A stretch of DNA of 34,415 nt from a virus. Shown here piece by piece: positions 4,089 through 34,415 of this stretch. Position numbers and translations under genes: made by a program. The DNA lies in IMG/VR virus record IMGVR_UViG_3300030390_000425, positions 1-34,415 of that record. One strand, written 5' to 3'. Numbering within the stretch: the first letter of the stretch is position 1; every line of letters starts with the position of its first letter. The notes under the pieces were generated by a model. The model was not told the DNA's origin. It made no database searches and worked only from the letters and a program-made list of their open reading frames with translations.

Positions 4089-5525
4089 TTATCCTTTCAC
4101 GATGAGTTTAGTAGCCGACACGGCAGTGCCAGCAAGTACAGATGGATTGGCAGCGGTTAAGCCCAGCGTACCATCAGTTTGAACGAAGTATTGTTGACCA
4201 GCAGTTAAGCTAGACTGTGCGTCATTGATAGAGCAACCCGTCTGGACAACAGCAGATGCCCCGTTAGCAGCAGCGCCCTTGGCAATTCCGATGTAGTTCT
4301 CTGAGGTGAGGTTGAAAGCCAAGGGCCTAAAAAAAGTAGCCGTCCCGCGATCAAAGAAACCTTCGTCCCTGTACGCAATTACTACATTATTAGAAGTGCT
4401 ATCAAAAGTGCATGAGGTATGAGAAGTATTTGCAGACTCAAAAACCACCGGAGAGTTGAAACTTATTGATGTTCCGCTTACAGTCCCAAGGATTCTAGTT
4501 CCGTAAAATGAATTACCGTTATCCCTGTAAACAACCGCTACCTTATTGGCATTGGTGTCAAATGTAGAGGATATTTCTCGAGCATCAGCAGCCTCAAACA
4601 CAACAGCAGTTCCAAAGCTAATGGATGTTCCGCTTACGGTTCCCACAATAGAATTACCATAAGTGGTGCTTGTAACTCTATACGAAATAACCACCTTATT
4701 AGAGTTGCTATCAAATGCCGCCGCAATAAAAGTTACCGCTGCGTTTTCAAATACAACAGGGGTTCCGAAGCTGATACTTGTTCCGCTTACTGTACCCACA
4801 ACACAAGTGCCAATATCGGTGGTCTGTATATCGCGATAGGCAATCACTATTTTATTGTTGCTGCTGTCAAATACCGTGGACGTATCTGTTGAGTTGCTGG
4901 TTGTAAATGCAACAGAAGAACCAAAACTAATGTTTGTTCCGCTTACAGTTCCAACACTAGCAGTCCCATCGCCCCCCGCACTATTATTTCTGTAAGTAAC
5001 CACTACTTTGTTTGAATTACTATCAAATGTAGCTCCTATACCTGCCATAACGACGCTTTTAAAAACAACAGCACTTCCGAAACTAATACTTGTACCAGAA
5101 ACTGTTCCTACAATACCAGTACCGTAACCACTATTACCATTATCTTTATAAGCAATAAAAATCTTGTTGTTAGAACTATCAAAAGTTATAGCTATTTCAT
5201 CTGTACTCGCAGATTCAAACACCACCGCCGTTCCGAAACTAATAGATGATGCCCCCACAGTTCCGACGATTGCCGTTCCATAATTGCTGTTTCCACCATC
5301 GCGATAGGCAATCACTACTTTGTTATTGCTGCTGTCAAATGTCGCTGCTGTAGATACTGTGTTTCCACTTTCAAAAACATTCGGAGAACCAATTACTTCA
5401 GCAGTCTCCGCAACAACACTAACAGTCCCATCAGCATTAACTATTACAGGTTGCCCACTAGGCAGTGTACCAGAGGCAACCGCCCGTACTTCACCATCTA
5501 CAGGTGTGTTGCCAAGGGACCGCAT
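4089..5525 (-). CDS. Tail fibre / receptor-binding paralogue C, seven-repeat predicted beta-propeller (478 aa)
   Basis: This is the most regular of the three paralogues. It has N-terminal LPSGQPVIVNADGTVSVV, then seven units of about 50 residues with cores NKVVIAYRDGGNSNYGTAIV and GTVSGTSISFGT, then the shared C-terminal LTSENYIGIAKG ... LTAGQQYFVQTDGTLGLTA ... VLAGTAVSATKLIVKG. The ATG at 5525 overlaps the TAA of the upstream structural gene (TAATG). It is probably a receptor-binding fibre. Whether all three paralogues are assembled together on one virion, or are alternative adhesins, cannot be told from sequence. Confidence 0.8.
   Translation of the reverse strand: MRSLGNTPVDGEVRAVASGTLPSGQPVIVNADGTVSVVAETAEVIGSPNVFESGNTVSTAATFDSSNNKVVIAYRDGGNSNYGTAIVGTVGASSISFGTAVVFESASTDEIAITFDSSNNKIFIAYKDNGNSGYGTGIVGTVSGTSISFGSAVVFKSVVMAGIGATFDSNSNKVVVTYRNNSAGGDGTASVGTVSGTNISFGSSVAFTTSNSTDTSTVFDSSNNKIVIAYRDIQTTDIGTCVVGTVSGTSISFGTPVVFENAAVTFIAAAFDSNSNKVVISYRVTSTTYGNSIVGTVSGTSISFGTAVVFEAADAREISSTFDTNANKVAVVYRDNGNSFYGTRILGTVSGTSISFNSPVVFESANTSHTSCTFDSTSNNVVIAYRDEGFFDRGTATFFRPLAFNLTSENYIGIAKGAAANGASAVVQTGCSINDAQSSLTAGQQYFVQTDGTLGLTAANPSVLAGTAVSATKLIVKG
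4355..5387 (-). repeat. Seven tandem ~150-bp coding repeats (fibre C)
   Basis: Approximate limits of the repeat block in paralogue C. All seven units retain the VxF(E)-FDSxxNK-YRxxG pattern, and six retain GTVSGTSISF or a close variant. Confidence 0.8.
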
Positions 5526-26308: not shown

Positions 26309-26902
26309 TCAGAATGGGATGTCATCATCAAATAGTTTTGATCTTTTGGGCCTGATGTCCATGACTTCTGCGCCTGGGAATGATTGCTTGACTGCTTGTT
26401 CAAACTGTCCTGCTTTGTGTTTTCTAAAGTGTCGGTATGCTAGGGCCACTTCACGCATTGTGAGCAGTTCCATTTCTGGTCGTTGTTGTTTGATTGCTTG
26501 CCACGATCTTCCGTCTTTCATTATTCCGAGCAGCTCACCGTCTATTTCCATCTCCCACACGTCCGTAGAGGCTCTCTGAGCGCCTAAGCGCTCTGCTTCT
26601 GCATCCATAGCCGCCAGCCCTCTAACAACGATCTCTGCGCGTATTTTACATTCCTCTGGATTATTTTCTTGTATGGCTGCATTCATCTTTGCCATTGCTG
26701 ATCCATATTTCTGGGCTGTTTCGACGCTTACCAATTCTGGCAGCATATCGATTCCCCATTTAAGGTCCATTTGCACTGCGCTCCGATCGACTGGCGCTAT
26801 TGCGTAGTCGCACATAATTTCTGTTTTGCTTGCTTCACGATTAAACAGTTTATCTGCTTTCTTTGAATACTTAGGCTTTCTTGTTTTAGTTTGCGTTCCC
26901 AT
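26309..26902 (-). CDS. Replication-module protein with bacterial SSB C-terminal tail (197 aa)
   Basis: The protein ends KRSKLFDDDIPF. DDDIPF is the conserved C-terminal tail of bacterial SSB, which binds PriA, RecO, RecQ, the Pol III chi subunit and others. The rest does not read like an OB-fold SSB. It is mainly helical, with IMCDYAIAPVDRSAVQMDLKWG, LPELVSVETAQKYGSAMAKM and a helical REVALAYRHFRKHKAGQFEQAVKQ. The ATG (26902) follows GTGGAGG and the CCACAGT cluster. A strong terminator follows the gene. It may be a helicase-loader-like or adaptor protein recruiting host replication proteins to phage DNA (inference). I do not recognise a named family. Confidence 0.8.
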   Translation of the reverse strand: MGTQTKTRKPKYSKKADKLFNREASKTEIMCDYAIAPVDRSAVQMDLKWGIDMLPELVSVETAQKYGSAMAKMNAAIQENNPEECKIRAEIVVRGLAAMDAEAERLGAQRASTDVWEMEIDGELLGIMKDGRSWQAIKQQRPEMELLTMREVALAYRHFRKHKAGQFEQAVKQSFPGAEVMDIRPKRSKLFDDDIPF

Positions 26903-26916
26903 CTTCTTTTAATCCT

Positions 26917-27070
26917 CCACAGTTAAATCACCACAGTTTTATCTAATCCACATTCCCCCACAGTAGTATGTCTAATACATACAACTACTGTGGTGGAAGT
27001 ATTTGTGGCCTTTTCTTCCACAGTTCCACAGTTCACCACAGTTCATAAATATACAACTGTGGAACTGTGG
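26917..27070. repeat. Cluster of nine CCACAGT motifs, candidate iteron origin
   Basis: CCACAGT occurs in direct orientation starting at 26917, 26931, 26958, 27018, 27026 and 27036. It is inverted (ACTGTGG) at 26987, 27056 and 27064. The cluster lies in the 211-bp gap between the primase-helicase gene and the SSB-tail gene. Iterated 7-8 bp motifs in an AT-containing gap beside a Rep-type gene are the usual build of a replication origin; an operator array is the alternative. Confidence 0.75.
26958..26993. repeat. Inverted repeat CCACAGTAGT... within the motif cluster
   Basis: Left arm CCACAGTAGT(ATGT) at 26958-26971 mirrors right arm (ACATACA)ACTACTGTGG ending at 26993, with a three-base bulge. 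It could form a hairpin or bind a dimeric protein. Confidence 0.75.
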
Positions 27071-27073
27071 AAG
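27015..27073. repeat. Perfect 19-bp inverted repeat with AT-rich spacer
   Basis: CTTCCACAGTTCCACAGTT (27015-27033) is exactly the reverse complement of 27055-27073, with a 21-base spacer containing ATAAATATA and one more CCACAGT. Each arm holds two motif copies. Confidence 0.88.
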
Positions 27074-27113
27074 GCATACAATTCACCCCGTACATTCTCC
27101 ATCGACCCATCCA

Positions 27114-29306
27114 TCAACCCACTTCCTCCCAATGCACCCACTCGCCTACGACAACGCACGGCACGTCTCTTCCATGTCGTTTGGACGGTATGTCTGCTAT
27201 TTTGAGGCTACCAGTGTTTATCCATTGCTTTGCTACTGCTTTGGCTCTGGCTTTATCGCCTGGTTTATCTATGTCTAGGTTTAGCTGTTCTGCTACTGCT
27301 TGTCCGATCCAGTTCTTTGCTCTGACATCTGATCTGTATGCTTGGTCGTTTTCTTCTGCTTTTGCGACTGTTCTTTGTACTTTGTAGAGGTCTTTGGTTG
27401 TTATGCCGTCGAACAGGTCAGGCAGTTTAAATTCTGTTGCTACTCCGAGGCGTTCACCGTTTGCTATTTCGACTGACACCATGCGTCTGTAAGTTGCTTT
27501 GTCCGATGGGGGTGCTAGGTTTGCTTTGCCATCGTCTATTCGGAATATCCCGAGGCTTTCTTGTTCGTCCACTCCGAGTGCTTGTGCGTCTTCTGGTGTG
27601 ATCCTGTTGATTACTCTTGCTGCTCTTGCTGCACCGATCAAAGATCCTGCTCCGCGCACTGAATCAACTGTTGCGTCTTCTCCGTTGCCTTTTCTGATGT
27701 GATGCACGAGCTGAACTGAGCTGTTGGTGTCTCTTGCTAGCTTCCTGAGCATTGATACGACTGCTTGTATGCTGCCATTGTTGTTTTCATTGACCAGATG
27801 GGCTGACACGAATGGGTCTAATATTACGACACCTATGTTGTTTTCTTTGATCTTTCGGATCATAAAGGCTAGCAGCTCATCGTTTTGGATTAGGCCGTCC
27901 CTGCCTTCTGCTGCGAGTGTGATCTGCATTGTGTCCTCACCATCCATGAACAGCTTGCCTGTGACATCATCTGGCGTAAGTCCGTAGTGCTGCATGGCTG
28001 CTAGGGTTCTCATCTGCATTTCTGAGATTGGATCTTCTAGATTTATGATCCAAGTGTTTGTTTGTTGTTTAACCTGAACGCCAAGAAGGTCTTTGCCTGT
28101 TGATATTGCCAGTGCCTCGACAATGATTGCTGATGTTTTACCGATACCTCCGGCTGATGCTGTGACGCTGATATACTTCTTAATGTAATCGTATCCATAG
28201 ACCCACTCTCTGCGGGGCAGAGACAGCGCATCGAACATTGTGTAAGGCGTAGGCCATTCATGGCCTGTATCGTCCTCTGTGTGGCTCTGTGTAGGCTCTA
28301 GGGCTATGTTCATGGCTTGGTTTTGCTGATCCATGCGCTCGGCTGCTGGATCTGGCTGTGGCGTCCATCCTTTTGCTCTTGCTCCATCGATTGCCTTTTG
28401 GACTTCTCTTCGCGTGTCTTCTGGTGAGTATCCTGCCAATGTGAAGCTGTCGCTGATCGCGTGGATCTCTTCGTCTGTTAGTCCTTTGTTGACGTATGAG
28501 CCAACCAGGCGCACCATATTGAGGTGCCAATCATCCCCTGCTAGCACGTTCTGCACTGCCATCTGCCTGTCCATTGCCTGCTGTCCGAGGTCTATGTTGA
28601 TTGTGCTAGCAACCGGCGTTGATGTCTTAGGGAATGTTCGCATCATGCGTTCAAACTCTACTGGATCTCTGTCTGTACTAAATTCTGTACGCATTGTGAC
28701 CAGCTCTGGGACGTATCCTTTGTCTTGTTTCTTTTGGTTGGGCCATGAGACTGTGCCTGCCACGCGCATTATTCGGCTTGGGTTTACGACTGCTGCATCT
28801 GTTTGCAGTGATGCTGCTATTGATTTCTGAACGTCACGCCATGCCTGGAGGTTTTGAACCGGTTCTTCTAAGGCCCAGTATGCGTGGCCTCTGGCGAATG
28901 GCGTTGTTCCTGTCTTGATTGACATTGTGAATTTTGGGCCTGCAAAAGACAGTATGTTTTCCATTGCGCCTGCTGTGTCTGCGTCGGCAAAGCAATAGAA
29001 TGCTGCTAGGATGTCGGTGTCTTTGGCTGCTTGGCCTGCTGGGATGTCTACAATGGGATCAATTGGATTGATGCACATGTAGATGTTTTGCTTGGCTGCG
29101 TTCATTGCCTCGGCGTGCTGAACTGCATCATCAAGGTTTTTTAGTGCAAATCTTGCGGCATTGGCTGATCCAGTTGTTGAGATAGAGCGTATCTCTATGA
29201 GCGGCTTGCCAACAGCATTCCAATTTTCTGTAATCTGTGCTATAAACTGCTTTATGACTTCGGACTTGGGGGCCATTTCCATTTTGTTTTCCATTTCCCT
29301 ATTCAT
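27114..29306 (-). CDS. Primase-helicase: RepB/AEP-like primase fused to RepA-type ATPase (730 aa)
   Basis: Residues about 1-230 look like an archaeo-eukaryotic-type primase. The acidic metal site is FADAD (106-110), the histidine motif is ARGHAYW (138-144), and SRIMRVAGTVSWPNQKK (177-193) matches the RxxRxPGTxNxK pattern of RepB-like primases. Residues about 360-600 are a RecA-fold helicase of the RepA/AAA_25 type: Walker A SAGGIGKTS (384-392), Walker B GVVILDP (492-498), and sensor VHHIRKG (534-540) followed by RGAGSLIGAAR. GGGAGGTTCAAT precedes the ATG. It would open and prime the phage origin and probably binds the CCACAGT cluster just downstream. No polymerase gene accompanies it, so host polymerase is implied. 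Confidence 0.85.
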   Translation of the reverse strand: MNREMENKMEMAPKSEVIKQFIAQITENWNAVGKPLIEIRSISTTGSANAARFALKNLDDAVQHAEAMNAAKQNIYMCINPIDPIVDIPAGQAAKDTDILAAFYCFADADTAGAMENILSFAGPKFTMSIKTGTTPFARGHAYWALEEPVQNLQAWRDVQKSIAASLQTDAAVVNPSRIMRVAGTVSWPNQKKQDKGYVPELVTMRTEFSTDRDPVEFERMMRTFPKTSTPVASTINIDLGQQAMDRQMAVQNVLAGDDWHLNMVRLVGSYVNKGLTDEEIHAISDSFTLAGYSPEDTRREVQKAIDGARAKGWTPQPDPAAERMDQQNQAMNIALEPTQSHTEDDTGHEWPTPYTMFDALSLPRREWVYGYDYIKKYISVTASAGGIGKTSAIIVEALAISTGKDLLGVQVKQQTNTWIINLEDPISEMQMRTLAAMQHYGLTPDDVTGKLFMDGEDTMQITLAAEGRDGLIQNDELLAFMIRKIKENNIGVVILDPFVSAHLVNENNNGSIQAVVSMLRKLARDTNSSVQLVHHIRKGNGEDATVDSVRGAGSLIGAARAARVINRITPEDAQALGVDEQESLGIFRIDDGKANLAPPSDKATYRRMVSVEIANGERLGVATEFKLPDLFDGITTKDLYKVQRTVAKAEENDQAYRSDVRAKNWIGQAVAEQLNLDIDKPGDKARAKAVAKQWINTGSLKIADIPSKRHGRDVPCVVVGEWVHWEEVG

Positions 29307-30784: not shown

Positions 30785-31251
30785 GCTGTTAGCTTTCCAT
30801 ATAGGGCCAAAAGACAGGCTTCACTTCTGCCATCATCCTTGACGCGCTTGAATAAATCAGCCTGCTCAGGCCATCTTTGGCTGGCAAGTGATCGGCTCAG
30901 TCCCTTGTCTTTGTTTAAACCTAAAAATGGTTTCCACTTGGACGGCGTGACCAATGTCATTGGTAGCTTGTGCGCTGCAATAGCCATCTGCGTGGCTCCG
31001 TAGCCTTGACCAAATCGGAACATACTGCTGACTCCGTTGCCCCTTACGGCGCTTACCTGTTCCAGTATTACATGATGAGGCTCATCGCCTTCTGGCGTTA
31101 GGATTGCATGCAGCTCGTACAGGTTAAGCTCTGTCTTACCCTTTATGTTCTTGTAAACAGGCATGTCATGCACTTCGACGCGGTTAGGTTTCGGCCAGAA
31201 GAATGCAATTGCACCAGTAAAACCTGGATCGATGCCGACATATACAGTCAT
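30781..31251 (-). CDS. RuvC-like Holliday junction resolvase (156 aa)
   Basis: The RNase H-fold acid sites are visible: GIDPG with D8, VILEQV with E64, and C-terminal KDDGRSEACLLA with D140 and E144. The segment FRFGQGYGATQMA and PSKWKPFLGLNKDK are typical of phage and bacterial RuvC proteins (FxxGxxxGxxxG and PxxWK). Length is right. It would cut four-way junctions and branched concatemers before packaging. It overlaps its neighbours by 4 bp on both sides (ATGA). Confidence 0.9.
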   Translation of the reverse strand: MTVYVGIDPGFTGAIAFFWPKPNRVEVHDMPVYKNIKGKTELNLYELHAILTPEGDEPHHVILEQVSAVRGNGVSSMFRFGQGYGATQMAIAAHKLPMTLVTPSKWKPFLGLNKDKGLSRSLASQRWPEQADLFKRVKDDGRSEACLLALYGKLTA

Positions 31252-31430
31252 ACCTGATCTCTGATTTTAATGCCGTTAAAGTTAAGGAAAAAGAAGATCG
31301 CCTCTTCGGTGAGGTCGCGAAGGGTTGGGTCTTGCCCAGCCATCTTCTTTCGATTTTCTTGCAGCGCTCTCATGCCGTCAGCCAACTCGCACTTGATGCG
31401 GTGGTTCCATTGTTCTTTGTTCTGTTTCAT
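31248..31430 (-). CDS. Small early protein at head of replication operon (60 aa)
   Basis: I chose ATG 31430 (MKQNKEQWNHRIKCELADGM) over ATG 31454. The -10 of the candidate promoter (31461-31466) would put the message start close to 31454, making the longer form leaderless. The longer form would also encode the operator-like TGCTAG at 31445. The product is charged and helical, with a hydrophobic ending AIFFFLNFNGIKIRDQV. The function is unknown; it could be a small regulator of the operon. It overlaps the RuvC-like gene by 4 bp. Confidence 0.65.
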   Translation of the reverse strand: MKQNKEQWNHRIKCELADGMRALQENRKKMAGQDPTLRDLTEEAIFFFLNFNGIKIRDQV

Positions 31431-31444
31431 TTTAACCCCAAGGT

Positions 31445-31531
31445 TGCTAGTCATTCACAACACATAGTGCTAGCAATTATTTTTATCAAGTGCAAAAATT
31501 TGCTAGCAAGGGTATTGCAAAGCTGCTAGCA
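31445..31531. promoter_or_regulatory. Divergent operator: four TGCTAGCA-type palindromes
   Basis: TGCTAGCA occurs at 31468-31475, 31501-31508 (inside TTGCTAGCAA) and 31524-31531 (inside CTGCTAGCAG). A degenerate copy, TGCTAGTC, lies at 31445-31452. Start-to-start spacings are 23, 33 and 23 bp, so the array is symmetric and close to whole helical turns. The sites overlap both candidate promoters. Confidence 0.8.
31461..31489 (-). promoter_or_regulatory. Candidate leftward promoter (replication operon)
   Basis: On the minus strand, TTGATA (31489-31484), 17 bp, then TATGTG (31466-31461). The -35 matches consensus at five of six positions; the -10 is weak. The spacer contains a TGCTAGCA palindrome. 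Confidence 0.55.
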
Positions 31532-31543
31532 GTCCCTTATCTT
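31515..31543 (+). promoter_or_regulatory. Candidate rightward promoter (early operon)
   Basis: TTGCAA (31515-31520), 17 bp, then TATCTT (31538-31543). The spacer holds the TGCTAGCA copy at 31524-31531. A transcript would start near 31550, just before the AAAGGAAAAC ribosome site of the first small gene. Confidence 0.6.
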
Positions 31544-34070: not shown

Positions 34071-34384
34071 TACTTTCGTCCCATCCATGCTGTTGCGCCC
34101 ATGAAAGCGCCAACAATGCCAGCGCCAGAAATGTAGAATAGATTGCTTATGTCGCTTAGTGCAGTGACGCGATCCAAAGGTATAAAGAACATTGTGACTG
34201 TGAATACTGCCATGCCGACCAGTGTCCACCGGGCCATGCGAAGCTGGGCCAGGTGCTTACGCAGCGCGTCCTCTGTTTCGCGGATCTCTTTGGCCTTCAT
34301 CATCTCAGCGTCAGAGACAATTCCATCGCCATCCATGTCATAAGCGTCGTACTTGGATTGATCTTCTAGCTTTTTTGCCGCCAT
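34070..34384 (-). CDS. EF-hand membrane protein of the lysis block (104 aa)
   Basis: A calcium-binding EF-hand loop is visible at residues about 16-27 (DMDGDGIVSDAE), with the expected D-x-D-x-D-G-I-x-x-x-x-E spacing. A helix follows with AKEIRETEDALRKHLAQLRMAR, then two membrane helices (WTLVGMAVFTVTMFF and ISGAGIVGAFMGATA). Its ATG is in the terminal overlap. It directly precedes the holin, so it may regulate or sense lysis conditions or cations. The gene arrangement is seen in marine phages as I recall; the function is not established. Confidence 0.85.
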   Translation of the reverse strand: MAAKKLEDQSKYDAYDMDGDGIVSDAEMMKAKEIRETEDALRKHLAQLRMARWTLVGMAVFTVTMFFIPLDRVTALSDISNLFYISGAGIVGAFMGATAWMGRK

Positions 34385-34415
34385 TCTAATCCCCGATCTT
34401 TACCTCAAAACACTG
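34318..34415. repeat. Right copy of 98-bp direct terminal repeat
   Basis: Identical to 2-99. It contains the start of the EF-hand gene and the 31 bases upstream of it. Confidence 0.9.

Follow-up and report, generated by a model that had tools for sequence, protein, structure and literature searches.

A cluster of short repeats that follows the primase-helicase gene of this phage is very probably a replication origin of the iteron type, to which the primase-helicase of the phage itself, P2, binds through a C-terminal winged helix in which residues 662 and 711 would specify the first and fourth letters of a six-base motif. We write this motif X1-TG-X4-GG, CTGTGG being its form here, and number residues as in the P2 of the window, by which we mean the whole 34,415-nt stretch of DNA analysed (IMG/VR record IMGVR_UViG_3300030390_000425). 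Binding, melting, helicase loading and firing are what we infer by comparing sequences; an origin bound by the primase-helicase, as an earlier note on this DNA had proposed from the repeats, now gains support from the conservation of the array in relatives and from its covariation with the C-terminal domain of P2. Indeed, the window holds what is expected of an iteron origin, several regularly spaced copies of one short motif near an initiator gene.

The ends of the record (1-98 and 34319-34415) overlap by ~97 bp, so that the window probably represents an entire genome, either circularly closed or permuted. A terminase, a head-tail adaptor, an internal virion protein and a GTA-type holin among its gene products point to a podovirus. 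The host is probably an alphaproteobacterium; close relatives were not found among GTDB genomes, and so the host could not be assigned by that route. At the DNA level, relatives of the P2-P1 stretch were not found among deposited phages, nor relatives of the array among plasmids. Nearly all genes share one strand, and because of this the GC and AT skew, the check on the origin that had been proposed earlier, says little; there is no clear turn of GC skew at the array. Elsewhere in the window, three or four GCTAGC palindromes (TTGCTAGCAA-like) lie at 31440-31535, in the gap before an early gene (31248-31454, minus strand), where a heptamer is clustered locally without genome-wide enrichment; the palindromes resemble an operator at which a repressor would control a divergent early promoter.

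Positions in the window of the array, its inverted repeats and the flanking genes
Feature	Position	Strand	Remarks
P2, primase-helicase, proposed initiator	27114-29306	-	upstream of the array in transcription; PHROG 906, AAA_25, 1g8y, 6zp9
P2 region with C-terminal winged helix, proposed iteron-binding domain	27117-27434	-	residues 625-730; AlphaFold2, PDB comparison, covariation
R662 codon, H711 codon	27321-27323, 27174-27176	-	proposed readers of bases 1 and 4
Iteron array	26917-27070	unstranded	nine exact CCACAGT/ACTGTGG copies, six + and three -; orientation and spacing kept in relatives
IR1	27015-27073	unstranded	perfect 19-bp inverted repeat, two facing iteron pairs, 21-nt spacer
IR2	26953-26998	unstranded	inverted repeat; two facing iterons, opposite in orientation, flank an AT-rich dyad core
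P1, SSB-tail protein	26309-26902	-	C-terminal DDDIPF; first gene after the array

The copies of CCACAGT, whose core on the minus strand reads CTGTGG, start at 26917, 26931, 26958, 27018, 27026 and 27036 on the plus strand and at 26987, 27056 and 27064 on the minus strand, exactly the six direct and three inverted copies that the earlier note had claimed, and the whole 34.4 kb contains a single further copy, at 5255. The count is far above chance, as had also been supposed: in 30 Markov simulations of the window the commonest 7-mer per 154 bp reached 3-4 copies, against the nine observed. The perfect inverted repeat is likewise exact (arms 27015-27033 and 27055-27073); its spacer has the 21 nt given for it, but is only moderately AT-rich and contains an additional CCACAGT copy (27036-27042). 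The second, imperfect hairpin was found as well, with 14 of 15 positions paired between its arms (26953-26967 and 26984-26998), and its core is the other AT-rich stretch of the array besides the IR1 spacer. This dyad core, kept in most relatives, is the best candidate at the sequence level for a DNA-unwinding element. Folded as single-stranded DNA, the gap reaches -39.8 kcal/mol (z = -8.2), and Rfam gave zero matches in the window. The exact DnaA box TTATNCACA is absent and DnaA boxes occur at or below chance; the one match with a single mismatch (26944-26952) shares bases with a degenerate iteron and does not persist in class C arrays. A DnaA-assisted theta origin, for which conserved DnaA boxes are expected, was considered and set aside.

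P2 matches the DNA polymerase/primase family PHROG 906 and Pfam AAA_25. Its N-terminal part resembles the PrimPol primase domain (phmmer, 6zp9, E 5.5e-4) and is archaeo-eukaryotic-primase-like, and its middle part resembles the RecA-fold helicase RepA of RSF1010 (1g8y, E 1.8e-8). The C-terminal ~90 residues form a winged helix in AlphaFold2 models, with a pLDDT of 78-89 in the full-length model, which is poor as a whole (pLDDT 51) and of which only this part was used, and a mean of 80 when the domain is modelled alone. Structure comparison to the PDB returned mostly winged-helix domains, with middling scores, and we take the predicted C-terminus to be a winged helix as a statement about fold only. 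The matches to particular winged-helix proteins (RecQ RQC, FtsK gamma, SAMD1) were likewise taken as a likeness of fold only, and initiator winged-helix families outside the compared list may fit too. In the domain model, residue 711 is found at the wing tip and residue 662 in the loop before helix 2.

The gene product on the other side of the array, P1, has no match in PHROG, Pfam or NCBIfam. Almost all of 78 homologs retain its tail, DD-x-IPF or IPW, suggesting that P1 may dock on host SSB-binding proteins via an SSB-like acidic tail; it is possibly a co-regulated gene and not the predicted binder of the array. P3 (29357-29974) also has an SSB-type look and an acidic tail, and matched no library family.

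Four scans of IMG/VR with P2 queries gave 83, 186, 48 and 13 confirmed matches, the best 80 of 83 and the best 80 of 186 being carried forward from the two largest sets. We looked among these relatives for phages that keep the gene pair and lack repeats in the gap, the outcome that the earlier note had held to speak against an origin: nearly all of the roughly 170 listed loci that encode a P2 relative have the array, conserved in orientation and spacing. It was not found within 2.6 kb at three loci (L137, L156 and L169), and Rhizobium phage RHph_X2_26, which has a related helicase with a different C-terminus, lacks the array in the two gaps examined. Two further loci, L132 (5818-6100) and L187, have an array of about four copies only. 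Their P2 is ~95% identical to that of phages with eleven copies, and the short array is either a minimal origin or a sign that the origin has moved elsewhere. Every member of the close group that was checked has the array immediately upstream of P1, and in some of these phages an optional gene, for a PAPS-reductase-like SFSGGRTSGYML protein or a methylase-like one, sits between the P2 stop and the array; such cargo genes were inserted repeatedly at this same point (L012, L016, L020, L026, L028, L114 and L115).

The order and spacing of the copies are kept as well. Among 30 distinct IR2 cores, the last forward copy before IR2 and the first copy in an IR2 arm are 28-30 nt apart (only one core departs from 29 or 30), and the two copies within IR2 lie 27-30 nt from each other. 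The core sequence itself varies by lineage, yet it is palindromic and mostly AT-rich: 29 distinct cores have 243 pairs, against a shuffle mean of 154.5 and a maximum of 168, when counted with a movable centre, a fixed mid-core symmetry understating the dyad. To judge by these counts, the AT-rich dyad is maintained through compensatory change.

The repeat motif differs between phages and is largely uniform within one. CTGTGG, GTGTGG and GTGAGG are found in the close group, more distant relatives add GTGCGG and CTGAGG, and the classes are mutually exclusive within a phage. On trees of the same 71 phages, the motif needs 13, 11 and 13 class changes for P2 residues 1-210, 211-420 and 421-630, respectively, and 12 for P1, as against 4 for the C-terminal domain. 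Within P2, only this winged-helix domain tracks the motif, an indication that domain and array are transferred or altered jointly, apart from the remainder of the genome. A class D group (L080, L138, L139 and L178) has GTGGCGCA-type repeats (TGGCGCA-type) in the same place; its winged helix is diverged, with an insertion, and lies outside the residue-base code described below.

With the column of residue 662 located by anchoring on the conserved W-x-G, 176 loci among the matches listed gave 99 distinct pairings of residue and motif. Arg662 is accompanied by C at X1 in 46 of 48 pairings and by G in 2 of 48, and Gln662 by G in all 51. At X4, Gln711 is accompanied by A (30/30), Ala, Ser, His, Lys or Thr by T (63/63), and Asp or Asn by C (6/6), this last part of the rule having appeared only in the distant set. 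The rule was first derived in the close group and then checked on relatives 50-60% identical, where it held, including for Arg662 with Gln711, a combination that goes with CTGAGG and is absent from the close group. The exceptions are two Arg662 sets with GTGTGG (L038 and L128) and some mixed arrays, so that Arg662 does not strictly demand C. An unbiased scan of 380 P2 positions (helicase and C-terminus), with close sequences down-weighted, placed 662 at the top for X1 (symmetric uncertainty 0.81, next 0.53) and 711 at the top for X4 (0.65, next 0.47), with 711 fully determining X4.

A natural, nearly isogenic pair of loci, L143 and L144, provides a close-up of such a change. Their P2 fragments are 96% identical, with Asp replaced by His at 711, and their arrays can be aligned throughout; the X4 sites differ in 9 of 10 cases and the other columns in 16 of 140 (Fisher p = 2e-7), and 8 of the 9 X4 differences are C to T on the motif strand, with one in a shifted copy. 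Independent pairs on well-supported branches score 4/0/0, 3/0/0 and 5/0/1, the residue changing as predicted or, once, not at all; well-supported independent switches are few (3-6 per trait), and formal sign tests miss 0.05. Together this suggests that two P2 residues spell out two letters of the repeat, and that the address could be changed by changing both sides together. We lean slightly towards a broader proposal, that this is a natural, nearly digital code for origin choice in double-stranded DNA phages, in which the wing residue (Gln, Asp/Asn or other) would set one iteron base and a second residue (Arg or Gln) another. Lineages would jump repeatedly, with almost all of their roughly ten copies changing together, perhaps to escape the replication interference of relatives or origin-directed nucleases.

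The rule does not depend on proximity. Where the P2 stop and the array are 518-2037 nt apart, X1 fits in 34 of 35 and X4 in 35 of 35 distinct pairings, and this 0.5-2 kb in between argues against mere linkage, in which the 3' end of P2 and the adjoining array would be exchanged jointly by recombination with no protein-DNA contact. We consider linkage very improbable, even though different N-terminal backgrounds have clearly swapped C-terminal domains, and the domain lies next to the array in many close relatives: P1, which adjoins the array on its other side, does not covary, distant lineages share identical residue-base pairs, and the array at L143/L144 was not swapped wholesale but changed mainly at X4 sites. 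The same lack of covariation led us to reject P1 as the array binder. The earlier note had allowed for an autoregulatory operator of the SSB-tail gene, and the basic N-terminus of P1 and its start beside the array would suit one bound by the P1 protein; the covariation, however, points to the P2 C-terminus, the P1 tree needs class changes in the range of 11-13 found for the unlinked parts of P2, no P1 position tracks the motif well, and arrays persist at loci without a recognisable P1. Binding by P1 is in our view barely credible.

An operator could also be bound by P2, which would then control the downstream module (P1, then the packaging genes) as an early/late switch, the array being mainly a regulatory site and not an origin. 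The constant place of the array directly upstream of P1 in close relatives, even with a gene slipped in after P2, speaks for such a switch. Against it, different genes can follow the array, no P1 homolog being seen at 39 of 63 distant loci (some of them short fragments); the protein predicted to bind is a replicative helicase, and plasmids carry the pair too. A promoter and terminator scan found no sigma-70-like promoter in 26600-27400, which is weak evidence. We judge a mainly regulatory array unlikely, and a second role as operator for the following gene, added to that of origin, compatible with the layout.

The plasmids in question are complete circular plasmids of Methylobacterium indicum (pVL1_6), Microvirga lotononidis and M. 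terrae, in all of which a related helicase, similar in its C-terminus, is followed just downstream by an array of GTGGGG or mixed GTGAGG/GTGGGG. All three have Gln at the 662 position and G at X1. Their primase is a separate toprim protein, an indication that the array goes with the helicase-winged helix part. A Rhodoplanes plasmid has GGTGACGC repeats, a motif that the code does not cover. pVL1_6 also has genes for a phage tape-measure protein, ParA and an integrase, and another annotated replication initiator was not found in its (incomplete) annotation.

If the array is an iteron origin, the P2 winged helix would bind each 6-bp copy X1-TG-X4-GG, the residue just before helix 2 (662) specifying X1 and the wing-tip residue (711) specifying X4. 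Several P2 molecules would assemble on the regularly spaced, facing copies, and the complex would melt the AT-rich dyad of IR2, where the RepA-type helicase ring would be loaded and priming carried out by the fused primase. Such a system would provide a concrete origin and initiator for a widespread environmental phage group, for which we found no cultured close relative, and for related alphaproteobacterial plasmids. It would also be a natural collection of variants, where exchanging a few residues of a single small domain should alter origin recognition, making the evolution of replication specificity directly testable, and the code may allow origins of related metagenomic phages to be recognised by their sequence alone.

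Staphylococcal SaPI Rep and SCCmec Cch2 use C-terminal domains to bind iterons that lie just past their own genes (PMC7581432). P2 is like them in having short iterons directly downstream of the helicase gene and a C-terminal domain proposed for origin recognition; a residue-to-base code is not known to have been described for them. Unlike that of P2, their primase is not fused. P2 also differs from them in its RepA-type helicase: SaPI Rep is not known to be of that type, and Cch2 is described with the D5 family. The pRN1 ORF904 and phage BIP-1 type proteins combine a primase, an SF3 helicase and a winged helix, with a stem-loop origin downstream (PMC4234260). P2 likewise has an archaeo-eukaryotic primase, a helicase and, at fold level, a C-terminal winged helix in one protein, with inverted repeats downstream, but its helicase is AAA_25/RepA-like and not SF3, and pRN1 has one large stem-loop as its origin, with no iterons, unlike the array here. 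RSF1010 has an iteron origin, and the P2 helicase domain is a sequence relative of its RepA (1g8y). The helicase, primase and iteron binder of RSF1010 are three proteins, RepA, RepB' and RepC (PMC4234260), where here one protein is proposed to fill all three roles; since the covariation lies in the helicase's own C-terminal domain, a separate RepC-like iteron binder would not be needed.

In the PLE satellites of Vibrio cholerae, the RepA_N domains and the origins vary together, apparently driven by an origin-directed nuclease that attacks them (PMC8263062). There, as proposed for P2, the part of the initiator that binds DNA follows the iterons in its variation and is exchanged as a unit; the PLE iterons, however, are ~30 bp long, the protein family is another, and whole domains are swapped in place of a one-residue-one-base code. 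In geminiviruses, one variable base of the iteron core (GGNGTCC) is associated with one Rep residue, an association thought to set replication compatibility (PMC2974675), although these are single-stranded DNA viruses of plants with an unrelated, rolling-circle Rep. We found no description of the RepA-type helicase/array system presented here in the literature searched. The principle is already known from SaPI, PLE and geminiviruses, and what appears to be new is the RepA-type-helicase lineage and its readable code.
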